Origin: Alistipes senegalensis
GTDB lineage: Bacteria > Pseudomonadota > Gammaproteobacteria > Burkholderiales > Burkholderiaceae_D
NCBI GenBank assembly: GCA_023664945.1
Contig: JAMPER010000003.1
Location: forward strand, 24,032 to 88,031
Length of the DNA stretch: 64,000 bases
Reading direction: 5' to 3'
The notes beneath the pieces were generated by a model. That model had not been told where the DNA came from and ran no database searches. It saw only the letters and a list, made by a program, of their open reading frames with translations. The translations under genes and the position numbers were made by a program. Of this stretch, positions 6,856-8,376 are shown piece after piece. Positions within the stretch are counted from its first letter, which is position 1. Each line of letters begins with the position of its first letter.

Positions 6856-6865
6856 CCCCCCCCCC
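6856..6865 (+). repeat. Homopolymeric C10 tract upstream of opgB-like gene
   Basis: Ten consecutive C residues lie between the candidate -10 box and the start codon at 6875. Tracts of this length are prone to slipped-strand changes. Its position suggests control of transcription or leader length rather than reading frame. Confidence 0.9.
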
Positions 6866-6874
6866 TTGCGAACC

Positions 6875-8376
6875 ATGAAATATTTATCAGGTATTTTTCG
6901 ATTTATCACGGCATTAACCGGATTCCTGGCTATTTTCTTTTTAACCACAACAAAATGGCTCACCGCTACTTTTGGAAAAAATATTACCATTGACCAAATA
7001 TTGTTTCATCTGGTTACACCGCAATCCGGTGTAAGCCTTAAGATTGTTATGAAAATTGCCGTCTTCTTCCTTGTTTTAATTGCGGGGGGGGGGTATGGGT
7101 TTTTCTTGTTTACAAAATTGATTATTTCTCCCGCCTTTTCTTTTCATTGCCCGGTATTCTCATAGCATGGCATAAAAAAGCCTCTGCCCTCCGGATTCAG
7201 CATAATAAAAAATACTTTTTTATCCTTCTTTTTCTTTTTATTATCAGCCTGATTACAGGTTATATCAGTTTAAAAAAGGCTGATAACAAGCTGCATATCA
7301 GGGAATATCTTTCATCTCGTCAGGAAACGACAGGAAAAGATTTTTTTTCGGAACATTATCAGGTTCCGCCGGCTAGTGAAATTACCTTTAACAAAAAGAA
7401 AAACCTGGTGATTGTGTTGGCGGAATCCCTGGAAAACAGTTTTTCCGATTCCCGTATTGGATCTTCTCTTATACCGAATCTGGAATCATTCAAAAAACAA
7501 TCACGGCACAATCTTAACCAGATACAGGTTCATGGAACCGGCTGGACGATTGGCGCCATGACAGCATGGCATTTTGGCGTGCCATTGAAACTGCCGGTTG
7601 ACGGGAACAACTACAGCACCAAATTTGGCCATACAACGTTCCTTCCCCATGCCACAAGTATTTTTGATATTCTCGCCGAAAACGGATATGAACAGGTATT
7701 GTTGCTGGGAAGCAAGAAAGCCTATTCAGGCAAGGATAATCTTTACAAGCATGGCAATTTCCGCATACTGGATAAGGCCTATTGGAAAAAAGCAGGCTAT
7801 GACATAGATAAATTCAAAGGAACGGACTGGGGATACAATGATGCCTTCTTATTTGCCCGGGCAACAGAAATGTATCAAGAGCTGTCCCTGAAAGGGAAGC
7901 CTTTTGTCCTGGTTATTGAAACGGTAGATACGCATTTCCCTGATGGTTTTTGCCCTGAAGAGGAAAAGGTTTACTACGATATCCGTGACGCGATTGTGAA
8001 AACGGACAGGGAGCTGGGGAAATTCCTTGCAGAAAATTTTGCAAGGAAGACTGACGATACGGTAGTTGCCGTATTGGGTGACCATTTGTTTATGGGAAAT
8101 CCCGTTTTTCTTTCTCCTGTTCGCGAAAGAACTATTTTTAATGCTTTTGCCGGGGATGTGCCGTCATTTGGAAAGAGAAAGCACTCAGAGAAAGTATCTG
8201 CGCTGGATATGGCTCCTACTTTGCTGGAAGCAGCCGGTGCAAAATGGGGATCTTCCCGGTTTGGGCTGGGGGTCAGCCTGTTTTCTGATGATCCCTCTCT
8301 GGTTTCCCTTTACGGGGAACAGGAACTGAACCGCCTGCTCGCTCAATATTCTGCTTTTTATGAGGCTCTGTATTGA
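6875..8376 (+). CDS. MdoB/OpgB-like phosphoglycerol transferase, frameshifted at G10 tract (phase-variable)
   Basis: Two frames make one protein. The first (ATG 6875) gives two or three membrane segments and ends at a TAG near 7165. The second continues after a G10 tract at 7084-7093 to 8376. Adding one G (or losing two) restores a single ~500-residue protein, reading IAGGGVWVFLVYKIDYFSR across the junction. The restored N-terminus has the MdoB-type motif (IDQILFHL) and three to four membrane helices. The rest is an alkaline-phosphatase-fold domain with VLAESLENSF and GTGWTIGAMTAWHFGVPL, where the Thr-containing block is that of phosphoglycerol transferase I/LTA synthases, and VLGDHLFMGN. Relatives move phosphoglycerol from phosphatidylglycerol to periplasmic glucans or surface glycans. 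As sequenced the gene is OFF. Family call firm, substrate inferred. Confidence 0.8.
7084..7093 (+). repeat. Intragenic G10 tract (phase-variation switch)
   Basis: Ten G residues occur inside the N-terminal membrane region of the phosphoglycerol transferase. With 10 Gs the frame runs into a TAG after about 97 codons. With 11 or 8 Gs it joins the catalytic domain. It codes glycines, so the protein tolerates length change. Confidence 0.92.

Follow-up and report, generated by a model that had tools for sequence, protein, structure and literature searches.

An OpgB/MdoB-like gene in the 64,000-nucleotide stretch of DNA analysed here (the window) is, judging from its sequence and from comparison with related loci, very probably a contingency (phase-variable) locus, switched at an intragenic run of ten Gs. 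The gene carries the run, changes reading frame at it and has kept both of its halves; similarly broken genes are found in the same genome, and run lengths differ between genomes at other loci. The marks of a contingency gene are present: a long intragenic mononucleotide run at which two frames can be joined by run length, and a difference in length with the coding flanks kept, seen between the window gene and a paralogue (G10 and G9) and, at other loci, in three of the six runs compared with the sister genome G007. A preliminary description of this DNA had proposed that an intragenic G run makes the gene phase-variable. That proposal is supported by the paralogue, by G007 and by similar genes elsewhere in the genome. 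The features of the locus are the following.

6856 to 6865, plus strand: C10 run, nine bases 5' of the start codon, a second, 5' candidate length-variable tract
6875 to 7165, plus strand: N-terminal membrane part of the OpgB-like protein, from the ATG at 6875 to a stop 3' of the G run
7042 to 8376, plus strand: catalytic part (Sulfatase/alkaline-phosphatase-superfamily domain, OpgB-like), a stop-to-stop frame
7084 to 7093, plus strand: G10 run, where the reading frame changes, the proposed slipped-strand switch

The frame that starts at the ATG at 6875 codes for 96 residues with hydrophobic stretches and ends at the stop at 7163-7165, and the open catalytic frame extends from 7042 to its stop at 8376. 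The two share only positions 7042-7165, which include the G10 run, and the gene has no other break. The frame change is placed at the run because the alignments to the paralogue switch there (the N-part alignment reaches as far as the run, and the C-part alignment starts just 3' of it), and because an intact, single-frame homologue of 506 amino acids in a Desulfovibrionaceae MAG (48% identity in the best segment) has relatives of both parts, the match to the N part having an E value of 1e-8 in a single comparison. The catalytic domain is thus out of frame with the membrane part exactly at the ten Gs, as first described, and the frame arithmetic by which eleven or eight Gs would give one full-length protein is right. 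A more distant homologue of 507 amino acids, on contig C13 of the same genome, is also intact, its N terminus giving no clear match to the N part of the window gene (E 0.066), and no G or C run of at least 8 bases was found at either of these two homologous loci. A terminator-like match at 7063-7093 overlaps the G run (five such matches were found vs 2.3 in shuffles) and is taken for a by-product of it.

The C10 run at 6856-6865 had been passed over in the preliminary description, and by eye there is no clear ribosome-binding site around it. It is C10 in G007 as well, and this single length in both genomes counts against a switch. An upstream start that would place the run inside the coding frame was rejected (no stop interrupts the frame across the run, but further upstream it contains no Met, Val or Leu codon), and so was a promoter including the run, as neither of the two promoter-like sites found is there. 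Three neighbours of the gene were searched, two Sel1-repeat proteins upstream on the same strand and an FKBP-type isomerase downstream, and there is no glycan gene among them.

The catalytic frame matches the Pfam family Sulfatase (PF00884, E 5.8e-15), and its best NCBIfam match is OpgB (PRK03776, E 2.4e-41, followed by PRK12363, E 1.2e-40). With the catalytic frame alone scored, the two equivalog models give 141.6 and 139.8 bits vs cut-offs of 574 and 572, and the PRK03776 match covers residues 56-415 of the frame against positions 111-468 of a 763-position model. On these matches the window gene is classed as OpgB/MdoB-like, below the OpgB cut-off; the assignment to an MdoB/OpgB-like phosphoglycerol transferase made at first sight thus stands as to the closest family, but not as to membership of the OpgB equivalog. 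The likeness to phosphoglycerol transferase I (OpgB/MdoB) of Escherichia coli lies in that best match and in the Sulfatase-type catalytic domain, and the differences are the unreached cut-off, the partial coverage of the model and the lack of an MdoG match in the 13 genomes of the genus. In an alignment of seven sequences, the window gene and its paralogue included, the invariant residues are, among others, N111, E118-S119, T159, D286-H288 and D337-H338, and we take E118, T159 and D337-H338 to be candidate metal ligands and nucleophile. Two other identities were considered and set aside: LTA synthase matches more weakly (E 1e-8), and no family of EptA-type lipid A transferases is among the matches listed. 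Among solved structures, the matches at E<=1 reduce to 3lxq (VP1736, E 1.5e-15) and one further, unrelated sequence with an E value of 0.61.

The paralogue, in the same genome (G000:C8:895722-896930), is 61-62% identical to the window gene, and at the corresponding position its ATG frame meets a G9 run, where it departs from the catalytic frame. Since the two copies have G10 and G9 with both halves conserved, the run length has changed since the duplication while both flanks were kept. The N parts share 40 of 69 residues, with a dN/dS over 69 codons of 0.28 (NG86) or 0.47 (YN00), and the C parts share 259 residues over 423 codons, with a dN/dS of 0.19 (NG86) or 0.15 (YN00); these ratios are uncertain, dS being 0.8-1.7, and the YN00 value of the short N part is not strongly low. 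These data bear on the possibility that the gene is a pseudogene, now decaying after a single break through slippage at a chance G run. Such decay would agree with the fact that both copies are out of frame (OFF) in the one genome read, which counts against a switch as a decaying gene would show it too, and with a gene that is dispensable in the genus, the search with the catalytic part in 39 relatives giving no match in another genome closer than 32% identity. Against it, neither copy has a second stop or frameshift over the approximately 1.3 kb of its catalytic frame, dN/dS between the copies is below 0.5 (although divergence before the break also counts, and a low ratio would also arise from selection preceding a recent break), the two copies are broken at the same place with different run lengths, and a GT9 gene of this genome that is open here is broken at its run in G007. 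Decay is for these reasons considered quite improbable.

Across the class, 5 of 369 genomes have a match at E<=1e-20, the genome of the window included, and one of the four others has an intragenic C9 run, in frame. This last homologue, in a genome of another genus, carries the C9 (coding for Pro-Pro-Pro) just 5' of the catalytic domain, and the run may represent another switch or just ordinary codons. G007 has OpgB-like copies of which only gene ends are available, on contigs C10, C11, C31 and C35 (L114, L115, L113 and L116, respectively); at the 3' end, 55 bases are the same in two copies, and an identical 18-residue reading is found at two 5' ends. The G007 copies may thus be nearly identical in mid-gene, as after gene conversion or a recent duplication, vs 61-62% identity between the copies in the genome of the window.

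In the window, matches to G7 are fewer than in dinucleotide shuffles (10 vs a mean of 26.2, 99 of 100 shuffles having at least 10), and so the shuffle test does not flag the G10 run. In the whole 1.93-Mb genome, runs of exactly 7, 8, 9, 10 and 11 bases number 47, 12, 6, 7 and 1, and the 8 runs of at least 10 compare with about 1.05 predicted (P about 1.5e-5) by a geometric tail that extends the decay from 7 to 8, a rough extrapolation. The bump at 9-10 resembles the length peak reported for Campylobacter poly-G tracts in PMC6321876. G runs of at least 9 are present in all 13 genomes of the genus. The longest, of 26 Gs, is in a genome assembled as a single contig (G003), which has five G runs of 22-26 bases (L078-L082); one precedes the gene of a large protein (L079), one lies where a histidine kinase frame begins (L081) and the rest are at unidentified frames. 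Homopolymers are error-prone in sequencing, and an error of run length in sequencing or assembly, with a gene that is in truth always in frame, would account for the break. Such an error fails to explain the run itself, the twin arrangement of the paralogue or the runs in 13 of 13 congeners, and PMC6321876 indicates that Illumina can read the shorter Campylobacter poly-G tracts accurately; it is judged very unlikely.

The genome has 14 runs of at least 9 bases, half of them intragenic, and all seven intragenic ones lie in genes of envelope-glycan type: the two OpgB-like copies, a GDPD-like gene, a GT9 gene (heptosyltransferase family), a GT2 gene, a GT92 gene and an LTA-synthase-like Sulfatase protein. 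The frames that the other seven overlap are all short (at most 190 residues), and these runs were judged by eye to be outside genes; among these runs are the C10 before the window gene and a run directly before a TolC-like gene, named from a reading of its sequence without a database search. The GDPD-like gene adjoins the paralogue on its 3' side and has a hydrophobic N terminus followed by a GDPD-like part; its frame pieces score 21.3, 21.4 and 22.3 bits, under the Pfam GDPD gathering score of 23.6, and for this reason it is called GDPD-like only. Two of the 13 genomes of the genus were found to have it. In the genome of the window its break lies at a G10 run, and the G007 orthologue (90% identical) has G11 and is broken in the other phase; the two parts of the gene have NG86 dN/dS values of 0.25 and 0.19. 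The GT9 gene, whose two parts have NG86 dN/dS values of 0.33 and 0.24, has a C10 run and an open frame here, and a C9 run with a broken frame in G007.

The comparison with G007 covered its 12 runs of at least 9, and 8 of the 14 runs of the genome of the window have no orthologous run among these. In the six with orthologous flanks, three differ in length (this genome/G007: leader of the TolC-like gene C10/C11, GDPD-like gene 10/11, GT9 gene 10/9), two are equal (Sulfatase protein 9/9, C10 of the window gene 10/10) and one, the run of the GT92 gene, has a T at the ninth place in G007; a search for the GT2 orthologue in G007, run without a positive control, gave no match. The unchanged frame at the runs of the Sulfatase protein and the GT92 gene suggests that certain runs of 9 are simply ordinary codons; the intragenic candidates would then number five. 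Transcriptional slippage or ribosomal frameshifting could also take place at a long homopolymer located where two frames meet, and some full-length protein would then be made from a fixed sequence with no heritable switch. This is the least probable of the explanations considered, as lengths differ between the paralogues and, at other loci, between orthologues, including the open and broken forms of the GT9 gene, which argues for heritable change.

In the proposed switch, slippage during replication at the G10 run would alter the length of the tract, and the length would in turn join or separate the membrane and catalytic frames, the genome as stored representing the OFF state. The ON enzyme would most likely move phosphoglycerol from phosphatidylglycerol to an envelope glycan (LPS core, O-chain or another surface glycan). 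A search for MdoG (PF04349) detected the E. coli control but gave no match in the 13 genomes of the genus, 7 of which are at least 90% complete, so that periplasmic glucans of the OpgGH type, a role put forward in the preliminary description, are an unlikely acceptor, as far as a search that covered MdoG only can tell; LPS or another envelope glycan is therefore the expected recipient of phosphoglycerol. We infer both donor and acceptor, and the transfer of phosphoglycerol to a surface glycan is given about an even chance. Slippage would be expected to produce mixed populations, in which variation of the surface could be of benefit towards phages or the host.

Switches of this kind are already known, and the gene, its switched companions and its genus are new members. 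The preliminary description knew of no well-described case in this enzyme family, a statement that two earlier examples overtake, one in a phosphoglycerol transferase and one in an enzyme of a related kind. Table 1 of PMC6321876 places N149_0993 of Campylobacter coli in the core phasome of that species, with the annotation 'Phosphoglycerol transferase' and a G(8-9) tract; the likeness to the window gene, in annotated function and poly-G tract, is drawn from the table entry and not from sequence. According to PMC3656113, pptA of Neisseria meningitidis, which codes for the pilin phosphocholine transferase, is switched by an intragenic G tract, and one of its two in-frame lengths gives an inactive enzyme, which calls for caution with the window gene too. 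The likeness is that of a phosphotransferase with a glycine-encoding intragenic G run, in which in-frame and out-of-frame lengths control a surface modification (PMC3656113); pptA differs in that it modifies pilin with phosphocholine, whereas the window gene is OpgB-like and has a switched paralogue followed by a switched GDPD-like gene. In the literature searched (by title and start of abstract, with few subscription journals covered), no paper was found on a phase-variable mdoB or on a glycerophosphodiester phosphodiesterase with a homopolymeric tract. C. coli belongs to a lineage distant from the organism of the window, and pptA and the window gene are presumably members of a common superfamily, that of alkaline phosphatase, and phosphotransferases of a related kind.

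The genus is probably Oxalobacter, an assignment suggested by oxalyl-CoA decarboxylase, which is above the cut-off in 12 of its 13 genomes (1.2-2.6 Mb, some incomplete) and also in 1 of 14 control genomes. Oxalobacter is an oxalate-degrading commensal of the gut, and no description of phase variation or homopolymeric tracts in it was found in the literature searched within the same limits. If the assignment is right, surface genes of this genus would have G-run switches, and clones would then differ in surface chemistry, which would bear on phage sensitivity, on colonisation and on strains given as live bacteria. A wider and doubtful proposal is that the two OpgB-like transferases write phosphoglycerol on a surface glycan and a periplasmic GDPD-like enzyme trims it, each of the three on a G-run switch of its own, with a fourth run that tunes the expression of the window gene, and recombination between the copies, making up a combinatorial and heritable surface code in what is probably Oxalobacter. 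Switched genes for both addition and removal make a specific and testable prediction on surface phosphoglycerol.

Thirty runs were read in six other genomes of the genus, and runs in G001, G002, G006, G008, G009 and G012 were counted only. Some of those read lie in genes of O-acetyltransferase, pyruvyltransferase, epimerase and GT4 type. Genes of other kinds also have a run within or beside them, namely those for an RNB-domain nuclease, a class I tRNA synthetase, flagellin, a histidine kinase and a DNA methylase, so that the run-bearing set is not purely one of surface genes. At locus L071 (10552-11700), a GT2 glycosyltransferase continues across a G11 run into the start of an apparent pyruvyltransferase domain (named from its sequence), the remainder of which is in another frame, after a break away from any G run. 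In G005, a gene of acyltransferase-SGNH (O-acetyltransferase) type is split into two frames that overlap at a G10 run, likely a further switch.
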